A DNA stretch of 64,000 nucleotides from Gautieria morchelliformis (Eukaryota; Basidiomycota; Agaricomycetes; Gomphales; Gomphaceae): the NCBI GenBank assembly GCA_015179125.1, contig WHVA01000094.1, forward strand, positions 212,803 to 276,802, written 5' to 3'. How positions within the stretch are numbered: position 1 is the stretch's first letter; each line of letters opens with the position of its first letter. The notes under the pieces were generated by a model. That model did not search any database. It was not told where the DNA came from and was given only the letters and a program-made list of their open reading frames with translations. Shown here piece after piece: positions 713-16,806 of this stretch. Both the position numbers and the translations under genes were made by a program.

Positions 713-3691
713 ATGCCCTCGAGATGGTTAGGCATGGCTCACTCGCTGACATATACCGCGTCTAGACTAACAAGCTTTGGGTTTGGAGTTGCCAAAGCCT
801 CCACGAAACTTGGTGTCAGCAGTTCAGTTAACCTCACGTGCAAAACACCTGGCTTAATTATGTTCAGTTCTCCGTCGCGCGACATATCGCTAGCATTGTC
901 TCAATACCCTTAATTACGACCTCCCTGGATCATCTTGAAAGCTTGAGTCTTCTCCCCATACTTCTCGGCGAATCCATAGCATCGACGTCGCTGGCCGCAG
1001 CCTCAACTTCATTAGACGCTATTTCCAACCTTTTAGATGCAAACGACGAAGCATCGTTCTCGCTCGCAACATTTGTCACGCTAGTTCGAACCGAATGGGC
1101 AGACCATGGACCGGTTGGACGGAGTGTTACAGAGGTCGCGCGAGCTGTTGCCGCATGGGCAGCCATACAGGGCTTTACAAAGCAATGGAGCGAAGAGCGG
1201 TGGCTCGGAGGTACTACAGAGCTCACACAACGCGACTTCAAACCTCCTGAGAAGTCTAATGGGAAAACTCAATTTGAGCCCCCTGGCCATCGACGCACAA
1301 TTAGCCGAGTGAGCGTGACGGACGACGTGATCATTCCCGAACAACTGAGTCAAGTGATATCAGCGGACATCGGCAGGAAAGACACACCAGTTGATGCAAA
1401 TTCATTAACAACTGCTCCTTCCGGTGGCACACCTCGGATCGACTCGTCTGTGTCGTTTCACTCAAACTACGAGACGTGGATGGATCTTCGTCGACTTTCG
1501 AAAATGGTGCTTGCGGGCTATGGGGGAGCCGGACTTCTCTTCTTTGGTACACCTTTACAACCAACTGAACCCAAGCCCAGTTTTTCACAATCATCCGCAT
1601 ATGAGAACCGCATTCCGTCTTCCTGCACAGATAACGAAGTCAAAGACATGGAGGAAGATATCCTTATCAACCTCGTTGAAGATGCTGAGGCTGAAGCCAT
1701 GTCACCACCCATGCGAAACGTAGCTGTTTCAGATGTACCGTCTTTTGAGTCAGCTTCGAACCGTACATCCCACCACCGTTCGGGTATCATCAACCCCACT
1801 CTAGCGCAAAGCTCTGCCACCCCTTCGTCGTCATATTCATGGTGGAACGTTCTTTTGGGAAAGCATGATCGCGAGATCTTTGAAGGATACGCATTCACGC
1901 CTGCCGATGATTCAGATAAAGCCACCAATCACTCCTCACCCGGTCCTTCCTCAGAACTGTCCTCCCCCACCCATAGCCGGCTACATCTCCTGTCGTCAAC
2001 GTACGGCATACCAGACATACCCACCGTAGCGTCCGACGGTACCCACAAAAAGGAAGGACCAAAACCTCCGACAGCAATCATTGGTGACATGCGTCATATG
2101 CCTCGGTTCTGGGTCCTGACAGATCATGGGAGGAAGCAAGTAGTCCTCGTTGTCAGAGGTGTGTTTGATCACTTCTGCATTGAGATGCGTTTGCTTGGAA
2201 GGCATCTGTAGAAATCAAATTGAGCTGACATGCCTGATTACACACCAGGGACCATGTCGTTCAATGAGCTAGCGGCGGTGGGCACCTCTTCCGATGTTTG
2301 TTTCTTCCATTTAATGTTGTCTGGGTTTTTCCTTCAGGATCTCACCTGTGAGCCAGAAAATTTTGAACCTGCAACGGCATCTTCTCCAGCAATTTCCAAA
2401 CCAGTAGGTGATTTTCATGTCTCTAAGCCTGATTCCACGGAGATGTGTCGGCCGTCGCGAACAAACAGCAGCACTGTTGTTGTCCCGTTTCCAGTTGAAA
2501 ATTCCTCCACCGGCAAATGTGATGTATCCAATTCTTCTATCCCCCCGACCTCAGAAACCTCGCCACACCATCACTGGACGGCGAACTATGTTAATGATGA
2601 AGCTCAGACCAGCGGTGTACCAATACGGACTGTTCCTGAAGTTGGTGAAATTTTTGCTGAAGACGATGCGCCGTCCTATCAAGTCCACGGCGGGATACTC
2701 CGTTTGGCACGTGCAATGGGATCCAAAGGCAAGCCTGTGCATGAGGCCGTTTCTGCAGCTTTATCTCGGAATCAAGGTTACGGTTAGTGCCAGAGAACAT
2801 ATTTGTGTTATAGCACTGAGGTTGATGATTGGTAGCACTTGTATTATGTGGACACTCTCTTGGTGCTGGAGTGGCTTCGCTGCTTGCTTTGGTGGGAACC
2901 TTTTGTGCTTGGACTGCATTAATCACTGGGTTACTAAAAATATCAGTATAGATGTGGGCAGATCCGATTAGCTGTCTCACAGTACCTTCAAGTGGTTTAC
3001 CATCAAATCGCCGTGCCTCTGTATACTGCTTTGCCCCGCCGTTCGTATCTGCCGTTTATTGTTGTTGCGACCCTTGAAATCGCTTTGATAGGTGTATAGC
3101 CTCACCTTCACTCTCCCGTCTCTGCAAGAACCTCATCACGTCGATCGTGTATTCCTTCGATGTAGTCTCCCGCCTTTCTTTAGGATCAATGCGTGACCTC
3201 ACCAAGGCAGCCTTTTGGCTCTGCGAGGGGCAGGGCGAGGAGAGCACTGTGAGCTTACTGCGCCGAGCCCTCAAGGGGAAGTTGGGCTTTGGGGACATCG
3301 TGGAAGATACGGAAGATGACAAGAAATGGGTCAGTTTTACATATACTCGCAGAGGCTTAGGGGCTGAGGTTTATGGCAGTTCATCGCGGTGCGCAAGACA
3401 CTCGAGGCTAACATGTACTTTGCACATCTCTTTCCTCCAGGTAGAGTATGGTGGGCGGTGCGCAACGAGTCACTGCACCCATCTCACCAGACCCCCGAAG
3501 CGGGCACACGGCTCCGCCTGTATGAAGTGCAACAAGTGGAAAAAGTATTTCGACAGATTGAGTTCAAAGGAGACATGCTCAGGTGAGTTCCGTAAAGCCT
3601 GGCCCACGCGCATTTGACGTCTCTTGTCCATATTTGTAGTTCACATCTACCGCATCAATATGATCGCATGCTGACGGAACTTGAGCTTTGA
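713..3691 (+). CDS. class 3 (diacylglycerol-type) lipase, multi-exon
   Basis: Serine hydrolase of the lipase_3 fold, closest in layout to sn-1-specific diacylglycerol lipases. The long second exon carries a Ser/Thr-rich N-terminal region and reaches FWVLTDHGRKQVVLVVRG. The next exon gives TMSFNELAA and the next DLTCEPENFEPA. Removing introns near 2159-2248 and 2278-2337 joins these in frame. A later junction (about 2784 to 2845) creates GYALVLCGHSLGAGVASLL, whose GHSLG is the nucleophile elbow. Downstream SIVYSFDVVSRLSLGSMRDL supplies the Asp region. The last exon, SSHLPHQYDRMLTELEL, supplies the expected C-terminal His. The ATG at 713 is the most plausible start, but the first splice (about 813-867) is not firmly placed. 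Membrane lipid turnover is inferred from the family. Confidence 0.83.
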
Positions 3692-3812
3692 TTATGATAC
3701 CGTGCTTTCCGGTTGATACACCAGTGTATGATTAGCCGCCATGTAGCCAAAACCCTCTCAATACAGTACAGACATGCAGAATACCTTTAGCGAACTTCCA
3801 CTAGTGAAGGAG

Positions 3813-4294: not shown

Positions 4295-4642
4295 TAGGGC
4301 ACGGGGGCAAAGTCGTTTATAACTTTGGGTTATACACTAGATGCCGGGCCCAAGCCCGGGCTTTGGGGCGGAGCCGGGCCTGCATATCACTACTCTTGAT
4401 ATAGGAACGGGCCAGCATGTAAATAACAAGGTAAACACACAAAAGAAAGAAGGATTTCTATTTTTATTTTTACAAAATAGGTGAAGAGGGGGAATCGGAA
4501 CTGCCGTGAAAAGCGGCAGCACTGCTTCGACTATCGTGTCCATAACTTCGACAGGTTTCTCGCTATCACCGACACCTACCACCAGTAGTAAGAAATGCAT
4601 TCTGCATCCCCCCGACGTGTTGCGAAAACAAACATTTCACTA
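4295..4642. other. intergenic region between SPT4 and the first AA7 oxidase
   Basis: No gene is supported. It holds the Spt4 promoter and the 3' flank of the oxidase. Bases 4341-4382 are a GC-rich, partly self-complementary stretch (CCGGGCCCAAGCCCGGGC core). Bases about 4550-4642 resemble 9228-9314 downstream of the second oxidase copy (shared TTTCTCGCTATCACCGAC), so the duplication includes this 3' flank. Confidence 0.5.
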
Positions 4643-6428
4643 TTAGAACCCCTCTACGAACTTGAACACATCCTCAGGATCCACAGCTCTCTTTATGCTC
4701 TCTAGTCGCTCGACGTGCTCCCCAAAGTATAGTCGACGCCACTCGTCATGGGTCAGCGTCGGATCCATGTAGTTCGGGTACGCCCCACGGGGCTTGCGTT
4801 CCAGGGCCGACACCATGCCATCAACAAATGGAATGCCGTCTTTCGGGTACGGCGGTGTGATAGACGAGGCGTACAGCTGGTACACAAGGAACGCATCCCG
4901 GTGCGCAAATGCAGTAGCGTCGGCGGGCACCGCGTTGATTGCACTCTTGCCTCCGCCGTACACTGCGCACGTCGTCAGCTGACCCTACAGCTTCTCGCAT
5001 GGCTACTCACGGTCGACCTGCGCGAACCAGGTCGTGTTGCTCCTCGATCCCTCCGCTGCCAGATAATTCACCCAGGACGTGATCGAAGCATTCGAGTCAG
5101 GCTGGCTCGTTATGATAGACTGCCACCGATTCAGTACAGAATACATTTATACGTAGACAAAGAAGTCACCTTGGCAAAAAATGTATCATGCTACGCGCCC
5201 GTCAGCACAAATGCAGAGAACAAAGGTGAAACCTACATACACTATCAGGTTGAGACGTGCTGATCGTCCCGTTATCGTTCGCTAACGCAGCCAGTCCCTC
5301 GATCCATCCCAGTGCATTGACCGTCATATTTGCAACCTTCGGGAGCGTGACCACGAACGGGTTAATCACTTTTCTGAACTCATCCTCGGTTCCGTAGTAG
5401 TTGCCCGAGAACTCCGTCGAGACTGTCCCAAGTTGGCCGGGGATCGCTACGAAGAGAGCTGCCATCGCGAGCTCATTCGGGACCGTCGTTGCAAATGCTT
5501 CCCAGGCCGCATAAGCCGCGACTGTCTCGGGTATGCTGAGCGGTTCGAAGGTGATCACATAGCGTACTGTCGTGGGCGGGGCAGGCAGGGTCAGGTATGT
5601 CCATGCCGTGACGAGTCCGAATGAGGGGCCACCGCCTCGGAGTGCCTACGCGTGAACATTCGATCAGTGCCATCCATACGAGTTCGGACTACGTACCCAG
5701 AAGAGGTCCGTGTGCGAGGTGTTGGAGGCCGTCACCAACGTCCCGTTCGCGAGGACGACTTCTGCAGACACGACCCTGTCCAACAACAGCCCACCAATTC
5801 TCGCAAATTTTCCAAATCCACCATACAGGGTATGTCCTCCCGTTCCAACCTACCATCAGAAATTCAATAGTCGCCCAATCACACGACTCCAAGACGCCAC
5901 GCACATAAGGACACGACCCATGCGGCAACGCGCGTTGTCCTTGGTCAAAGATGCCCGTCGCGAGTTCCCCCAGTCTGTTTCCTGTCTGGACAACAGCTGT
6001 CCCGTCAGAATTGAGCGTGAGCCCCTTCATGTTTTCCATGTTGATGACCACGTCCCCCGATAGGCCGTAAGCAGCGTAGGAGTGCCCCCCTGACTTTGCA
6101 GAGACGGAGAGCTGGGCTTTCCCTGCGCACGCCACGACAGCCTGGATTTGGCTCACCGATGTGCTAAACACGACGACATTGTCAGAAATACAGGAACATG
6201 CGTACAGGGACTGCAGGTAAGTAGTTACGGGATAACGACGAAGGACGGGTCAGTACGGATTCGTAGGTTGAAGGGCTCCGAGGCATTCAAGTAACCTGGG
6301 GTTGACGGTGTGAATACCACGAGGTCAGAAATCATGGAGATACACTGTTGTGCAGAGTGTACGTGATTTCCCAGCGCCGCCACCGAGGCGAATACAGACC
6401 CTGAAATCAGCATTGACAATCTCGCCAT
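4643..6428 (-). CDS. secreted FAD-linked oxidase, AA7 / berberine-bridge type, copy 1
   Basis: Flavin-dependent oxidase of the glucooligosaccharide oxidase/BBE group (CAZy AA7), probably secreted and oxidising carbohydrates to lactones with release of H2O2; the substrate is inferred only. Seven exons (6229-6428, 5905-6163, 5697-5849, 5241-5645, 5170-5190, 5011-5119, 4643-4962) join in frame to about 488 residues. The N-terminus is a hydrophobic signal (MARLSMLISGSVFASVAALG). KSGGHSYAAYG gives the histidine, and PHGSCPYVGTGGHTLYGG the cysteine, used for bicovalent FAD attachment. ALRGGGPSFGLVTAWTY is the substrate-domain entry. The C-terminal BBE segment contains YPNYMDPTL and the EHVERLESIKRAVDPEDVF end. 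It is near-identical in its 3' half to the copy at 9315-11101. Confidence 0.9.
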
Positions 6429-6783: not shown

Positions 6784-8247
6784 TCAGTGATCGTGGTGGT
6801 CGTCAGGCGGACTAACTGTCCCTGGCGGCGGGATGACTCCCGGACCAGTGACGGAGCACGCCAGGGCAGCAGTAGTGTTCCCGGGTGCCGCGAGCGGGGG
6901 CATCACCGGGAAATTCGGCGTCTGTTTCGCTAACGCCTCAAAGTCCAAGAAGTCCGTTAAATCGTTCGCATTTGCGTCACGGAAGGTGAGTGCGGGGAGG
7001 TTGAATTTCCGCTCAAGGAGCGCCAGGACAGACGTATGGTCATAGACCATGTGGCTGACGAAATCCCTTTTCGCATACGGCGAGATGGCGATCATGGGCA
7101 CACGGAAGCCATAGCGCTGATAGCCGTCGAATTGGGGCTCATTTGGGTTAATGGGCAGGATGGAGTCGGGTCGCAGGGCGGCAGGAGGCGGGACGTGGTC
7201 AAAGTAGCCGCCGTGCTCGTCGTAGTTGATGATGAAGAGGGTTTTATTCCACAGGGGCGAATTCCCGATGGCATGCGTGATATCGGAAATGAAGGCGTCG
7301 CCGAGGACGACGTTACGCGGATTCTCCTGCTCAACGCTGTTGTTGGGGTCGATGAAACTGAACTGCGGCAGCATGCCGGCTGCAGCGTCGGCGAAGAAAT
7401 CGGATATAGATTTATGGTTGACGGCTTCTGTCAGGTTATCGTTGATGAGGAATAGTTCTGGGGTCGCCCCATTGGGAAACTGTGCAACGTAGTCGGTCCA
7501 GCTGATATTGAACTTGTCGAGCGTATTGAAAATGGTTCCTGCCGCTGGTTGTAGCTGGCTGATGTCCTGGTTGTCCTCGGTAATTCCCAGCGAGGTGGCC
7601 GCGATGAGGTACATACGGTTAGGAAATGTCTGGCCTAAAAGTGAACAAAAAAATCGGTCGGCAATGGGAAACTGTTTTGCCAGGCTAAATGTCGTTGGCA
7701 GGTCTTGCTCGATGTAGTAGCCCATGGCTACTCCTCCGACAAGCAAGGTGCTACCCTGGAAGATTGGGGTAGAGACAAAGCCATCCATGCTTCCGTTGTC
7801 GAAGGCATTGTGACTTGCGGTCCACGTTTGGCTTGGCTGGCTAGGTAGCTGACACGTGTTGGGCATATGAAAAGCGTGTTGAATTGACCCATTGGGATAA
7901 GGATTTGTAGCGAGTGGCTTCCCGTCAGGACCAAGCGTGAAGCCATCCCCACGACCCAGCAGACCGAACATGTTGTCGAAGGAGTGGTTTTCCATCATCA
8001 GCATTATGATATGCTCGATCCCGGGAAGCGTGTCTGTCCCTGCGGGTAATTTGGGATTTGGAAGAGACCCGGGGTGTCGCAGCTCCTCGCGGCCCAAAGC
8101 GCGCAATGCCGCCTGCACACTGTCGTCGAGCTCGGGTGATCCTGGGTTAGGGTCTCCGTCACGGCGACTATGGTTGGCAAGCACGACATTCGCCGCGGCG
8201 CAGAAGCAGACAGCAGCGTTGAAAATGAAACGCATCGGATTCGGCAC
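6784..8247 (-). CDS. secreted phosphoesterase (PF04185 phospholipase C / acid phosphatase type), intronless
   Basis: Single uninterrupted frame of 487 residues, unlike its intron-rich neighbours. A basic start and hydrophobic core (FIFNAAVCFCAAANVVLA) look like a signal peptide. GIEHIIMLMMENHSFDNMFG is the hallmark N-terminal metal-binding motif of the phosphoesterase family. FIINYDEHGGYFDHVPPP is the second, carrying Asp and His metal ligands, and the downstream DHTSVLALLERKFNLP block is also conserved. The family includes bacterial phospholipase C and fungal acid phosphatases, so either phospholipid or phosphomonoester hydrolysis is possible. Several N-x-S/T sites fit secretion. The C-terminus is Pro-rich and ends in a DDHHDH tail. 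It lies between two AA7 copies on the same strand. A broken paralogue lies at 16025-16806. Confidence 0.92.
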   Translation of the reverse strand: MPNPMRFIFNAAVCFCAAANVVLANHSRRDGDPNPGSPELDDSVQAALRALGREELRHPGSLPNPKLPAGTDTLPGIEHIIMLMMENHSFDNMFGLLGRGDGFTLGPDGKPLATNPYPNGSIQHAFHMPNTCQLPSQPSQTWTASHNAFDNGSMDGFVSTPIFQGSTLLVGGVAMGYYIEQDLPTTFSLAKQFPIADRFFCSLLGQTFPNRMYLIAATSLGITEDNQDISQLQPAAGTIFNTLDKFNISWTDYVAQFPNGATPELFLINDNLTEAVNHKSISDFFADAAAGMLPQFSFIDPNNSVEQENPRNVVLGDAFISDITHAIGNSPLWNKTLFIINYDEHGGYFDHVPPPAALRPDSILPINPNEPQFDGYQRYGFRVPMIAISPYAKRDFVSHMVYDHTSVLALLERKFNLPALTFRDANANDLTDFLDFEALAKQTPNFPVMPPLAAPGNTTAALACSVTGPGVIPPPGTVSPPDDHHDH

Positions 8248-8282
8248 CAGCGGTCGCTGGTTAGGATTGAGTGACAGAAACC

Positions 8283-8292
8283 GGGCACTTTA
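8283..8292 (-). promoter_or_regulatory. candidate TATA box for the phosphoesterase gene
   Basis: Read on the minus strand, GAGTATAAAGTG lies about 40 bases upstream of the ATG at 8247. The spacing is short for a TATA box plus leader, so this is a tentative call. Confidence 0.35.
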
Positions 8293-9187: not shown

Positions 9188-9314
9188 GATAAAGATAGAC
9201 TCAAGCCATATGTACTGAAACCTACCAGTTTCTCGCTATCACCGACGTTCTACCGTCAATAGGAAATACATTCTGCATACCTCCGACGTGTTGCGAAAAC
9301 AAATAATTTCATTA

Positions 9315-11101
9315 TTAGAACCCCTCTACAAGCTCGAAGACATCCTCAGGATCCACAGCTCTCTTTATGCTCTCTAGTCGCTCGACGTGCTCCCCAAAGT
9401 ATAGTCGACGCCACTCGTCATGGGTCAGCGTCGGATCCATGTAGTTCGGGTACGCCCCACGGGGCTTGCGTTCCAGGGCCGACACCATGCCATCAACAAA
9501 TGGAATGCCGTCTTTCGGGTACGGCGGTGTGATAGACGAGGCGTACAGCTGGTACACAAGGAATGCATCCCGGTGCGCAAATGCAGTAGCGTCGGCGGGC
9601 ACCGCGTTGATTGCACTCTTGCCTCCGCCGTACACTGCGCGCGTCGTCAGCTGACTCTACAGCATCTTGCGTGTCTACTCACGATCGACCTCTGCGAACC
9701 AGAACGCGGTGTCGCTACTCGATCCCTCCGTTGCCAGGTAATTCACCCAGGATGTGATCGAAGCATTCGAGTCAGGCTGGGTCGTTATGATAGACTGCCA
9801 CTGGATCGGTACAGCATACACCGATATGTAGAGAAAGAAGTCACCTTGGCAAAAAATGTATCATGCTACGCGCCCGTCAGCACAAATGCAGAGAACAAAG
9901 GTGAAACCTGCGCACATTATCAGGTTGAGACGTGCTGACCGTCCCATTGATCGCAAACGCAGCCAGTCCCTCGATCCACCCCAGTGCATTGACTGTCATA
10001 TTTGCAACCTTCGGGAGCGTGGCCACGAACGGGTTAATCACTGCTTTGAACTCATCCTCGGTTCCGTAGTAGTTGCCCGAGAAACTTATCGAAACTGTCC
10101 CAAGCTGCCCGGGGTTTTCTCCGAAGAAAGCTGTCATCGCGAGCTCATTGGGCGCCGCCGTTGCAAATGCTTGCCAGGCTGCAAAGGCCGCAACTATCTC
10201 GGGTACGCTGAGCGGTTCAAATGCGATCACATAGTGTATCGTCGTAGGCGGGGCAGGCAGGGTCAGGTATGTCCATGCCGTGACGAGTCCGAATGAGGGG
10301 CCACCACCTCGTAGTGCCTACGCGTGAATATTCGGTCAGCGCATGCCATCCATACGAGTTCGGAGTATGTACCCAGAAGAGGTCCGTGTGCGAGGTGTTG
10401 GAGGCCGTCACCAACGTCCCGTTCGACAGGACTACTTCGGCAGACACGACGGTGTCCAACAACAGCCCACCAATTCTCCCAAATTTTCCAAATCCACCAT
10501 ACAGGGTATGTCCCCCCGTTCCAATCTACCGTCAGATACTAATTCAATGACCGCCAGTCACACGAGACGCCACGCACGTAAGGACACGTCCCATGCGGCA
10601 ACGCGCGTTGTCCCTGCTCAAAGATGGCGGTCGCAAGCTCCCCCAGTCTGTTTCCTGTCTGGACAACAGCTGTCCCGTCAGAATTGAGCGTGAGCGCCTT
10701 CATGTTTTTCATGTCGATGACCACGTCCCCCGATAGGCCGTAAGCAGCGTAGGAGTGTCCCCCTGACTTTGCAGAGACGGAGAGCTGGGCTTTCCCTGCG
10801 CACGCCACGACAGCCTGGATTTGGCTCACCGATGTGCTAAACACGACAATGTCAGATATACAGGACCGTGCGTACAGGGACTGCAGGTAAGTAATTACGG
10901 GGTAACGATGATGGACGGGTCAGTATGGATCCGTAGGTTGTAGGGCTCCGAGGCATTCGAGTAACCTGGGTTTGACGGTGTGAATACCACAAGGTTAGAA
11001 ATGTTGGAGATACACTGTTGTGCCGAGTGTACGTGGTTTCCCAGCGTCGCCACCGAGGCGAATAGACTGGACACCGAAATCACCATGAATAATTTCGCCA
11101 T
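9315..11101 (-). CDS. secreted FAD-linked oxidase, AA7 / berberine-bridge type, copy 2
   Basis: Tandem paralogue of the gene at 4643-6428 with the same seven-exon layout and all frames intact. The start MAKLFMVISVSSLFASVATLG is signal-like. Exon 2 carries SAKSGGHSYAAYGLSGDVV (His for FAD) and PHGTCPYV (Cys for FAD), followed across an intron by IGTGGHTLYGGFGKF. The last exon differs from copy 1 at only two of about 106 residues (DVFELVEGF against DVFKFVEGF). The 21-base exon near 9843-9863 and its neighbouring intron are also nearly identical to copy 1. The central part (FFGENPGQLGTVSISFSG) is more diverged. Both copies therefore look functional. Secreted carbohydrate oxidation is the family expectation. 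Confidence 0.9.
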
Positions 11102-12535: not shown

Positions 12536-15500
12536 TTATCTTCTGCGTGCCCTCCGACGGCGACCGGTGGAGGGCGCGTCGGGTTGGGGGTCAGCCTGTC
12601 GGCCGGCTTCAGCCTGTCGAGTGGCTCGCTCTTCGGCCTCTCTAGCCCAGTTGCAACTGCGATCTCTCTGCCCTGGGCGGCTTGGGGAGCTCTGCCGTGG
12701 AGTGGAAGTTGGCCACCGCGAACGGCCACGGGCCAAGTGCGCGTCGGATTGGGAGTCAGCCTGTCGCGGGGCTTCAGCCTCCCGTGCGTCGCTAGCCCGG
12801 TTCACGCTCCGATATCCCTCTCGTCGAGGTGAACCAGACCGCTGACCAGCATTAATTTCCTCTTGCCCCACGTCCGAACCAGGGTCAGCGCCCTGACGCT
12901 CCTTACGCCTACGACACATTCAGTTAACTCTGATATTTGCCCGTTGCAGAGATTCTTACCTTTGGCGGGCACTCTCTCCCGCATTTGTGGGCGAGTGGCT
13001 AATAAACCATCAGCTATTGGTGTATACAAGGAAATCGCCCAATTCTCACCTTCCGCCTATTATTTGTGCTTGGCGGTGGGATTGGGCCGCCGAGCCACCT
13101 TCTTCTCCGCCTCCGCCTTCTCCGCGAGCCTTCTTCTCCGCCGCCGCCCTCATTAACTTCTCCCGTTCTCCCGGTATCCCCATCGCGCCTCGGCGAGGCC
13201 CGGACTCTCTAAGGGGAAAATTGTTCCCCGCCACGTTGCTTCCTGCAGGTTGGGTGTGGTAGACCGCTGCGGAGCCAAGAAACTCTCGTGGCTTCGGAGC
13301 GGCGGGTTGGGAAGACACAGCTGAAAACGCTGAGGTAACCAGGCGATCCGTGGGCTGGCTGTCGTTTCGGTCAGGCCTACGATACATTCAATTAGCTGTG
13401 ATATTTGCCCGCCTGCAGAGATTCTTACCTTTGCCCGACATCCGCTCGTCCATGTGGGGCGATCAGTGAGCGACCCTGGTTAGTCGGCGAGCCGCTAATA
13501 AACTATCAGCTATGGGTATACAGAAATCACCCAACTCTTACCTTCCTTCTGTCACGTGTGCGTGAGGTTGGGATTTGGGTGAGGGTGAGGTCTCGGCAGT
13601 TGGCGAGCTGCTGATAAACTATCAGCTATGGGTATACAGAAATCACCCAACTCTTACCTTCCTTCGGTCACGTGTGCGTGAGGTTGGGGTTTGGGTGAGG
13701 GTGAGGTCTCGGCAGTCGGCGAGCCGCTAATAAACTATCAGTTATGGGATTACAAGAAAATCGCGCAATTCTTACCTTCCTTCCGTCACTGGTGCTTGAG
13801 TATGGGGTTGGTGGGGTGAGGACTCTGGCTCGGCATCAGCCGCCTCAGTTGCCGAGTCACTAATAAACCATCAGCGCTCAGTACGCAACGAAAGCACCCA
13901 ATTCTTACCTCCCTTCCCTCATGTGCGCCTGGGTGCCCTCTGACGCGGTTTCATCCACCGAGTTGGGGCCATCTGTTAGGTTCTCTACCCTGATGCCTTC
14001 TGCCTTGGTTGACTCAGTAATAGCTTGTAGTCCGGACTGATATTGGACATTTTGTGCCTCGAGTGGGTCTTGCAGCTCATTATTTTCGGGGCTCCCGTCA
14101 CTGTGGCCGGTCTCGACGCTGGGGTCGTCTGTTGACGCGTCGCTAGAGAAAGAACTGAACTCGCTCGAGACGGCATGCGCCTGACTGAGACTGCTCTCTG
14201 GACGGGGCCTCAAAATGTGATTAGGAAGAGTCTTGACTTCTGGGATACGCTCGAGGAGTTTGTTCAAGCCCTCGTCTGGCATGCTGTCTAAGTCCAGTCC
14301 CAAGCGCGCATACGCTGCTTCACGTTGGGCATACGTGCCGTCAACGTCGTCGATCGAGTCTGAGGCAGGTGAGTCGGGGGGAGTGGCAGGCGTTGATGCA
14401 GCGGTGTTCTCCAACTCAGCGCTGGCGCTCTCACGCTGCTTGCGAACAGTTTCTGGGTCACTGAATCGGAAGACATGGTGTTCACCTAGATATCTGATCA
14501 GCACAATACAAATAGCCAAGTTGATTGCAATTTACCGAGAATGATACGGGAGCCAGAACGAAGCGTGTAAGACTACATAAAGACCCCATTAAGTTAGACA
14601 AGCTCAATCAATGCAGGGTACAGCTCACCTGCCCAACTGTCAGCTGCTCGCCGTTGAGGAACTGTGGGTATGAGCCGTGAGGACCATCGACAAGGACGAG
14701 TTACTAAATTCGTACCGTTGTGCTGTTTGGCTGGGCACTAAGCGTCACCTCTCCATCTGTATTGTCGAAGAAACAATGCTCCTCAAGAATGTGGTCGCCG
14801 GTAAGTGGAATACCAGCTGGGTTTTCACTGTCCAATCGACCGACCTGCCATGCGACACGTCAAACTTGTCACCTATAGTGACTGTGTGACACGTACCATG
14901 GTTCGCCCAGGGCGCAGCTGATAGACAAGACATTCACTCATCAGAGGGTCTGGATCAGATATTAGTCACGTGGAATCTGACGAACTGGTCAACTCACCTT
15001 CGTTCTATGTCACCCAAACAAACAATAACCATTATTGAGTACCACAGATTATAAGGAACGAAATACTAACCAAGTTGACCAGGTGAGGCGTCTAGGTAAT
15101 TACATCATCAGCCACAACTTGCCATTCGCGCACCGGTAACGCACCTTAGGCATGTGTAGGCGCGCGTTGTTCTCGACAGTGATTCCGAGGTCTTCCAATG
15201 CTTTCTCGCGCTCCTTCTGCGCTTCTTGTGTACGCACCAGGTCGTCCATGAGCTTCTCGCTGGTCTCAAGCTGCTCCTGTAGCTCTGCCATGCTGATTTT
15301 CTTGATCGTACCATCCTTGGCTCGATACGTGATGATCTGCTTCTCCAGCGGCACCTTGGGGCCCCACTTGTCCCCGCCCGAAGAGCCAAACACTCTTACC
15401 AAGACGTGCGAGAGCAAGAATACAGCCATCGCCATCGGTAAGAGTTCTTGCCAATGTCCACGAACATGATCGATGGCAATCGTGTTCACGATCTAGAATG

Positions 15501-15883
15501 GCGGATCAGCTCTTGCCTTTCACATTAGTGTGGCAACATACCCAGAGGAGATCTGTGAAAGAGGCATTTGACATTGGCACAGGCGGTGCGTTCGCAGCGT
15601 CGATGAGGCTGTCCATCGCGGCGAGTGGTCCGGGGGCGGGTCGAAATGTTGGAGTTGCGGTGGCGAAGGCAAGGGGGATGACAGGGGTGGCGAAACCGGG
15701 TGATGGCTGGGGGAGCAGCTCGAGCACACGTGTTGGGGCCTGGCAAAAAATTGGGGGCGGCAGGACGCAGAAGTTCGTGGCGAAAGTAGCCGTGTCGGTG
15801 TTGTCCGTGTTTGTCGGTGGCGAGGGTGGGATTCCGAGGGTTTGTAGCACGGCTACAACGTAGCCAAGCATCAGATATAACAT
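12536..15883 (-). CDS. chimeric membrane protein with kinesin-3 neck/coiled-coil/FHA region, motorless
   Basis: Sixteen exons joined by hand give one frame of 857 codons. Exons: 15542-15883, 15145-15492, 15071-15091, 14998-15004, 14897-14949, 14716-14844, 14629-14661, 14536-14572, 13909-14485, 13776-13859, 13658-13726, 13542-13610, 13429-13494, 13050-13376, 12960-12998, 12536-12908. Residues 1-114 are hydrophobic at the start (MLYLMLGYVVAVLQTLG) and Pro/Thr-rich. A likely transmembrane segment follows (ELLPMAMAVFLLSHVLVRVF, about 130-149). Then comes kinesin-3 neck and coiled-coil sequence (TYRAKDGTIKK, AELQEQLETSEKLM, EKALEDLGITVE), TPHLVNL and DPLMSECLVYQLRPGRTMVG. A complete FHA domain follows (VGRLDSENPAG, HILEEHCFFDNTDGEVTL, FLNGEQL, SGSRIILGEHHVFRF), then the Unc104 linker (REAAYARLGLDLDS, PESSLSQ, LQAITES). 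No motor domain is present. The tail is Ser/Pro/Arg-rich and built from repeated exons. The FHA domain suggests phosphopeptide or protein binding; function is unknown. Confidence 0.8.
12909..13541 (-). repeat. second-order duplication of intron/exon blocks in the chimeric gene
   Basis: Two intron types recur in the same order. Type 1 (13495-13541 and 12999-13049) ends in TAGCTGAT.GTTTATTAG. It is followed by a short exon ending CAAAG (13429-13494, 66 bases; 12960-12998, 39 bases). Type 2 (13377-13428 and 12909-12959) starts GTAAGAATCTCTGCA and ends in TCGTAG. This indicates that a larger intron-exon-intron block was also copied, in addition to the simple 116-base units. Confidence 0.75.
13495..13908 (-). 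repeat. tandem exon-intron units (69-base exons, 47-49-base introns) in the chimeric gene
   Basis: Read on the minus strand, the stretch contains four introns (13860-13908, 13727-13775, 13611-13657, 13495-13541). Each starts GTAAGA[AG]TTG and ends CTGAT[AG]GTTTAT[TC]AG. They alternate with exons of 84, 69 and 69 bases, all in phase 2. The two 69-base exons encode the near-identical 23-residue module SPTAETSPSPK-PQPHAHVTEG. Each unit is about 116 bases. Because exon length is a multiple of three and phase is kept, every copy adds a module without breaking the frame. Confidence 0.85.
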
Positions 15884-15947
15884 TCTGTACCGCTACAAGA
15901 TGGCGGTTTGCACAGAGGAGTTGTGGGGGGCGCTCCTCGCGCCAGCC

Positions 15948-15957
15948 CTTTATATAT
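15948..15957 (-). promoter_or_regulatory. TATA box of the chimeric gene
   Basis: On the minus strand the sequence reads GGGATATATAAAGGGC about 65-75 bases upstream of the ATG at 15883, a normal distance for a short leader. It supports transcription of the chimeric gene from its own promoter and supports the chosen start. Confidence 0.55.
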
Positions 15958-16024
15958 CCCAAACCAATACAGTAGCGCTTAACTTGCTTAATGCGCGGGC
16001 CGGGCGACGGCTCGAACGGTTCGG

Positions 16025-16806
16025 TGCTTGCCAACGACATTTAATCAGCCTGTGAAAACCGTTTCCTAATGCATCAATTTCTTTGTTCAGTTTTGGGCCC
16101 AACCCGGTATACCTCATGGCAGCCACCTCCAGCCAGAACCGACGGCTGGACCCATTTTCAATACGCTCCACTCGTTCAATCTCAGCTGGACCGAATACGT
16201 TGCTCAGTTCCCCAATGGGGCGACCCCAGAACTCGCCGAGCTGTGCACCCCCCTTCACGCGTAGTGGTGGCATCACGTCGGGGAATCACGATCAAAAGCC
16301 TGGAGGTGGTGGCGCCCGCGAAGCCACCCCAGGCGGTGGCGCCAGGCCCGACGCCCCGGCCAGCGACGAGGGCATCGACGAGGGCAGTGTCGCGCTGCGT
16401 GCAGAGGTGCGCGGCGCGCGATGGGGCATGGTGCGCGGTGGGCGGGCGTGGCGGCAGCGACGGGGCGGGACGGGACGAGATGCACATCGGCATTGTATGG
16501 CACCTGGCCAAGGGATCGGGTCCTGCCAAGTGCTGTCAAAGTCTATATGACATTTATTCGCCGACGCTCCAGCCCGCGTAACGTCGTCCTCGGCGACGCT
16601 TTCATTCCGACCTCACGCATGCCATCGGGAATTCGCCCTGTCGAATAAAACCCTCTTCATCATCAACTACGACGAGCACGACGAGCACGGCGGCTACTTT
16701 GACCACGGAGTCCCGTCTCCTTTGCATCCCAATTGAGTGAGTGCCAATTCAACGGCTATCAGCACTATGGCTTCTGTGTGCCACGATCGCCATCTCATCC
16801 TCGGAT
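16025..16806 (+). pseudogene. decayed phosphoesterase (PF04185) copy
   Basis: Two blocks match the gene at 6784-8247 but in the opposite orientation. Bases about 16025-16235 correspond to its central part (LPTTFSLAKQF, CSLLGQTFPNRMYLIAATS, FNTLDKFNISWTDYVAQFPNG), with a deletion of roughly ten codons and several frame changes. Bases about 16570-16806 correspond to RNVVLGDAFISD, GNSPLWNKTLFIINYDEHGG, FDHV and FDGYQRYGF, again with frameshifts, stops and a duplicated ACGAGC unit. Between them lies about 330 bases of unrelated GC-rich sequence. Neither the N-terminal ENHSFDN motif nor the C-terminus is found. It cannot make the enzyme. Confidence 0.85.

Follow-up and report, generated by a model that had tools for sequence, protein, structure and literature searches.

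The window analysed here, a 64,000-nucleotide stretch of the Gautieria morchelliformis genome (G000:C1048:212803-276802), carries on its minus strand a gene model that we rebuilt from an ATG at 15883 to a TAA stop at 12538-12536. The model comprises 16 exons and 857 codons, its 15 introns are all GT-AG and 47-66 nt in length, and it exactly reproduces the single frame with consensus splice sites that a sequence-only reading had joined by hand. The analysed genome amounts to 122 Mb; C325, C178 and similar labels refer to contigs of this same genome, and the letters a, b and c to separate copies on one contig. Tandem FAD-linked oxidase (BBE) genes lie at 4555-6428 and 9228-11101 and are 90.6% identical over 1.9 kb; Pfam confirmed BBE and FAD_binding_4 in the second of these oxidase genes (9.2-11.1 kb). 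A phosphoesterase gene with a 501-aa frame occupies 6787-8289, and the phosphoesterase relic noticed earlier, which consists of inverted pieces at 16129-16796 just upstream of the chimeric gene, is 94% identical to it over 109 bp. Ordinary genes, recognised by Pfam as DRMBL, EMG1, VWA, PPR repeats, RRM, Ric8 and Rpb1 frames, are found between 26 and 60 kb.

The spliced 857-aa protein contains Kinesin_assoc (PF16183, E 2.7e-16) and FHA (PF00498, E 6.3e-6), both above the Pfam cut-off, and its closest PDB entry by sequence is the CC1-FHA structure of KIF1A (4egx, E 4.3e-34); the individual exons give nothing above the cut-off. Together with a linker that aligns with contig C325, these matches bear out the neck, coiled coil, FHA domain and linker originally read from the letters. 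The motor domain (PF00225) was not found in the protein by Pfam at E up to 0.1, the only motor remnant being the last motor exon in diverged form, and the absence of an upstream motor holds for the whole contig: all 33 motor-domain matches found genome-wide are on other contigs. KIF1B, DUF3694 and PH are likewise absent from the protein according to Pfam, with only remnants of PH exons and introns remaining, as are FAD_binding_4 and BBE. Two hydrophobic stretches are present, at aa 1-19 and aa 131-149 (Kyte-Doolittle 19-residue means of 1.71 and 2.04, respectively), and a membrane topology of the predicted product is plausible.

The kinesin-3 body and its parent gene

The kinesin-derived body matches C325:60504-62004 with 87% DNA identity, directly after the motor-domain matches of that contig (C325:59487-60319). 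Motor, Kinesin_assoc, KIF1B and DUF3694 domains were identified on C325 by Pfam and PH was identified on hand-joined exons, whereas FHA is shown there by alignment only, the whole coding sequence of this gene not having been spliced. KIF1B has three matches genome-wide, one in a 687-aa frame on C325 and two on C648 in frames of 101 and 162 aa. Within the window gene, the neck/coiled-coil part and a linker, assigned by Pfam and alignment, take up the rest of exon 2 and exons 3-5 (14897-15398) and include a 7-nt microexon (15004-14998). The FHA domain (aa 258-324) follows in exons 6-8 and the beginning of exon 9 (14484-14844), and the post-FHA kinesin-3 linker forms most of exon 9 (13981-14485), up to the end of the DNA match to C325. 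Seven introns in the kinesin body, including those that flank the microexon, occupy positions identical to those of the parent, with GT and AG intact in the window. The proposal that the middle of a kinesin-3 gene was moved at the DNA level with its introns is thus upheld, and a processed (retro)pseudogene is ruled out by the same seven introns. At the start of the coiled coil, a 24-nt deletion has removed eight codons, most of the NETWEQKM motif behind the neck, so that pairing with the parent is less sure.

In the 3' part, exon 16, most of exon 14 and the final ~70 nt of exon 9 show no kinesin homology. The PH-domain introns of the parent (L029 296-493) form the basis of the cassettes that make up exons 10-13 and 15, and the cassette region (12909-13908) contains exons of 84, 69, 69, 66, 327 and 39 nt, every one a multiple of 3. 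The last exon (12536-12908) encodes a low-complexity basic tail ending in the TAA stop; beyond about 12866 the only match is a weak one of 70 bases to C178:48043-48130 (69%, E 1.4e-4). When exons 10-16 (1024 nt) were simulated as Markov copies, 0.2% of these stayed open in the model's frame and 0.35% in any frame, in a test that ignores the freedom of splice-site choice.

Promoter, first exon and membrane helix

The TATA box recognised in the sequence-only reading lies inside a core promoter block (15884-15987) that is common to a family of loci with a hydrophobic first exon. The promoter core occurs in 12 of the 16 stretches searched, the window included; it is partial in C238 and C926 and reduced to 14 bases in C178b, and its part at 15954-15884 is 85% identical to C47. 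Exon 1 (15542-15883), defined by the rebuilt model and by matches to other loci, encodes the N-terminal hydrophobic segment and a Pro/Thr-rich stretch; as a candidate for a known Pfam family it gave no match over the cut-off. Its last 55 nt match an exon of an FAD-linked oxidase ending in TSHTDLFR, and 15596-15504 matches C252, C707, C47, C173, C1004 and C445 at 69-81%. The order of 15987-15884, parts of 15746-15602 and 15596-15504 is kept at other loci. When the first exon of C411 was used as a query, 13 matches, the query locus among them, were obtained at E up to 1, and none has stops; nine had E < 1e-3, and the eight of these other than the query are 38-67% identical to it. Such matches lie on C173, C264, C926, C639, C1004, C445, C707 and others. 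By sequence comparison, the 5' exon and promoter belong to a local hydrophobic-first-exon family linked to pieces of FAD-linked oxidases. On C264, a 185-aa frame (L074 18-572) carries a two-helix first exon; inspection of 1.2 kb by eye revealed neither an oxidase nor a kinesin reading there, so this locus is possibly a relative of the donor exon without chimeric structure.

Intron 1 (15493-15541) is chimeric. Its first 38 nt align with the intron behind the FAD-linked-oxidase exon ending in TSHTDLFR in C707, and it ends in the acceptor of the kinesin intron preceding the last motor exon, CATTCTAG; because one part is oxidase intron and the other kinesin intron, the join is placed inside introns. 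Behind it lies the last kinesin-3 motor exon (15444-15492; KIKNKAVVNEDPNAKLVRELKEEL in the parent), aligned in diverged form with deletions of ~9 and ~18 nt, and then a former kinesin-3 intron (15399-15443) that has lost its donor and acceptor AG and is now part of an exon, where it supplies most of the helix.

The hydrophobic stretch at aa 131-149, LLPMAMAVFLLSHVLVRVF (15444-15388), is therefore encoded by the intron behind the last motor exon together with the beginning of the next exon. A membrane helix had been suggested in foreign 5' sequence; a helix-like stretch does exist, but it is derived from kinesin, and a foreign source is ruled out by its alignment with the motor-end exon and intron. 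Donor and acceptor are present in the intron of C325 at this site, whereas the acceptor AG has become GG in the window, C178a and C178b. In these three copies the former intron is open and hydrophobic in frame despite unlike deletions (16+9 nt in the window and C178a, 4+9 nt in C178b), and the parental intron, in the frame of the next exon, already reads CLIAMFRMYGLLTSYVLARV. A second, native helix lies ~100 residues into the exon-1 relatives in C411, C173a and C264, and the piece in C707 also has one; comparison with these four shows that exon 1 of the window is without it. It seems from these alignments that a kinesin intron became a membrane helix in the window gene.

Related stretches elsewhere in the genome

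Eleven contigs carry kinesin-3 pieces, in 16 stretches altogether, and the 5' block of the window gene recurs in many of these; the count of 16 consists of 14 of the 16 distinct stretches compared (not C238 or C926, and weak in C47) plus C178a and C178b. A single unique fusion is thereby ruled out, and what had been described as one new gene is instead one of many such stretches. The parts retained differ among loci: the window and C178 retain neck to FHA, C707 the neck and the beginning of the FHA linker, C648 and C720 the KIF1B-to-DUF3694 region, and C173, C411, C1004 and C445 DUF3694 and later parts, this domain being over the Pfam cut-off in C173a and C411. C252 and C707 have the same unusual order of pieces, with the KIF1B region ahead of the motor end. 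A 485-bp repeat array on C648 (L073, C648:209207-210817) contains a FAD-oxidase piece and a KIF1B-region kinesin-3 piece in each unit.

The window and C178a share a collinear block of ~5 kb, with gaps, which would be explained by segmental duplication. C178a has a stop in exon 1 and has lost the donor behind exon 6, and at its intron-1 acceptor site there is a near-perfect palindrome of ~94 bp (L031 about 3684-3778) formed by the start of exon 2 and an inverted copy of it. Its FHA exon is interrupted by a long-terminal-repeat insert (C178:49478-55985; L030/L031) with a 5-bp duplication, GTGCC; stretches of C707 are 98% identical to this insert. C178b has an ATG at the aligned start and a 2-nt deletion, and its match stops after exon 6, while C707 also has a 2-nt deletion and its match stops in exon 5. 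Among these four copies, the whole frame and all sites are kept only by the window. Further afield, the frame is broken in C173b (84% identity) and in C648a and C720 (91-93%), C173c and C1004 have one stop each in the compared part, and C648b is in frame over its 0.3 kb at 92% identity.

Coding evidence and alternative explanations

The coding gaps common to the window and C178a are multiples of 3 in six cases out of six (24, 3, 3, 30, 6 and 3), while among non-coding gaps the figure is 8 of 35 (p 7e-4 by Fisher's test, in a comparison selected once the data had been seen); 15 of the 35 come from one diverged flank, and C173b was used in two of the non-coding comparisons. Over all loci, 24 of 36 gaps in kinesin exons are multiples of 3 (p 2e-4 against the same non-coding set). 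Gap lengths were typed by hand from alignments, with the exon-2 start left out, and gaps judged common were counted once (C173c with C173a; 78 and 15 in C411, C1004, C445 and C173b; the 15-nt gap of C648b and C720 with C648a); one 1-nt gap of C720 is possibly doubled, as its two aligned stretches overlap. By locus, the proportions are 5/5 in C173a, 4/4 in C411, 4/4 in C445 and 5/7 in C1004, and these four keep the kinesin frame at 75-86% identity, C1004 over 98% of its aligned columns. No private coding gap is present in the window copy; this says little, because the dead C178a has none either.

Substitutions give a different picture from gaps. On the window branch, which carries 41 substitutions, nonsynonymous codons number 32, where neutrality predicts a mean of 29.05 (sd 2.68): amino-acid change there proceeds at the neutral rate, and purifying selection is not apparent. 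As the probability of finding no stop by chance on it is 0.54, we reject the stop-free kinesin body as proof of function. Omega is 0.86 for C325-window and 0.94 for window-C178a, 0.78-0.80 for the neck-FHA part of the window against C325 and C178a, 0.70-1.0 for KIN3 against older fused copies, and 1.18 for exon 1 of window-C178a (0.49-1.18 over all exon-1 pairs). C173a-C173c gives 2.06, counted from 6 S and 36 N changes, and C173c has one stop. For C1004-C445 the value depends on the frame that is read: 2.88 (1 S, 8 N, one stop) or 0.55 (8 S, 12 N). C707 against C325 has an omega of 0.11 over 119 codons, from which we infer a late departure of the C707 piece from a kinesin gene under constraint. 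This mixed coding evidence can be accounted for in two ways: by a protein family that changes fast and has many dead members, or by a family of pseudogenes that were once coding.

We lean towards the reading that the window holds a chimeric gene which belongs to a local family in decay and was formerly translated and kept in frame. Sequence comparison shows an intron-to-intron join between the kinesin-3 (Unc104) gene of this fungus and the promoter and first exon of a lineage-specific hydrophobic-protein family that is linked to oxidase exons. The last motor exon, neck/coiled coil, FHA domain and linker were retained, and motor core, KIF1B, DUF3694 and PH were lost. Splice sites have disappeared from the intron behind the last motor exon, which is now part of the open frame, and cassettes from PH introns are repeated in the 3' part. 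In the window's clade, the exon-1 helix of the relatives is gone and a nearby helix was apparently supplied by the exonized intron. The product would be a single-pass protein with an N-terminal signal, a short outer part, the helix at 131-149 and a cytosolic coiled coil and FHA domain, and it was probably translated, with its frame maintained, at an earlier time. Were it still produced, its simplest role would be to anchor the FHA/coiled-coil module at a membrane and to bind the partners of the FHA region of kinesin-3. The window copy, which belongs to a mosaic family, has a real but unproven chance of present activity.

A serious competitor, to which we nevertheless give less than even weight, is that these loci are pseudogenes, mosaics of gene fragments spread via Helitrons or segmental duplication, and that the window frame was kept by chance. 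The neutral substitution pattern and the chance of a stop-free branch agree with it, as do the mosaic piece order of C707 and C252 and seven or more broken relatives (C178a, C178b, C707, C173b, C173c, C648a and C720, with one stop in C1004). The genome is also rich in Helitron helicase-N domains, matched by all 150 scored candidates of the 865 found genome-wide, many in frames of >1000 aa, and capture and copying of kinesin and oxidase pieces by Helitrons is possible for this reason. Helitron-borne fragments have a 5' TC, a 3' hairpin and CTRR ends; at the few copy boundaries inspected, however, no common element terminus was seen, and the limits of the copies vary among loci. Also against pseudogenes are the in-frame gaps at several loci, and the cassettes, all multiples of 3, in a 3' frame of 1 kb that is open at P of about 0.002. 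The available part of a study of Helitron fragment capture in Pleurotus ostreatus (PMC4289320) describes a similar situation, with mosaic fragments in a Helitron-rich fungal genome; the likeness of the window family to that case lies in these two features.

The reading of a formerly translated chimera could be widened, tentatively and with more doubt than attaches to either account above, to a lineage-specific, fast-diversifying family of membrane proteins. Such a family would combine one signal/membrane exon with shifting oxidase and kinesin-3 parts, its frame being kept while residues change at or above the neutral rate (as the omega of C173a-C173c would suggest), and the helix lost from the window member would have been replaced by a translated kinesin intron.

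The function suggested in the sequence-only reading, that of a dominant-negative or cargo-side partner of the real kinesin-3, appears unlikely. The neck coiled-coil and FHA region does resemble KIF1A CC1-FHA, and a kinesin-3 gene with all domains is present in the genome; however, a dominant-negative effect would need pairing or common partners with kinesin-3, the loss of most of NETWEQKM probably alters pairing with the parent, and omega in the neck-FHA part is as high as given above. That a kinesin-3 gene was split by an assembly error, with its motor placed elsewhere, is highly improbable: nothing was found in its favour, the kinesin-3 gene lies on another contig, C325, at 87% identity, and the junction and promoter recur twice on C178.

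The formerly translated chimera we prefer resembles kinesin-3 proteins (Unc104/KIF1A; Kin3) in its neck coiled coil, FHA domain, linker and the intron positions of the local parent, but differs in having a membrane exon in front and no motor core, KIF1B, DUF3694 or PH. Young exon-shuffled chimeric genes of the jingwei type have a foreign 5' exon and fast protein change. Both features recur in the window gene, which differs from that type in that many loci are involved, parental introns are retained and an intron has apparently become a membrane helix, and in being known here from sequence alone. The likeness to FAD-linked oxidases (BBE) is confined to the end of exon 1 and its splice donor, the 857-aa product having no FAD-binding or BBE domain. 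For comparison, the part of PMC8950801 consulted describes a single kinesin-3 in Schizophyllum commune (Kin3), with motor, FHA and PH; among the open-licence papers listed, titles and the beginnings of abstracts yielded no membrane-linked kinesin-3 fragment. The locus offers an apparent conversion of an intron into a membrane helix and, if translated, a membrane-held FHA/coiled-coil module from a motor protein that could draw motor partners off the motor. The joining of genes intron to intron can be read here within a single genome, which contains both sources as well as intermediate copies, and, as expected of exon shuffling, two sources are identified (C325 and the hydrophobic-exon/FAD family) and the introns are kept.
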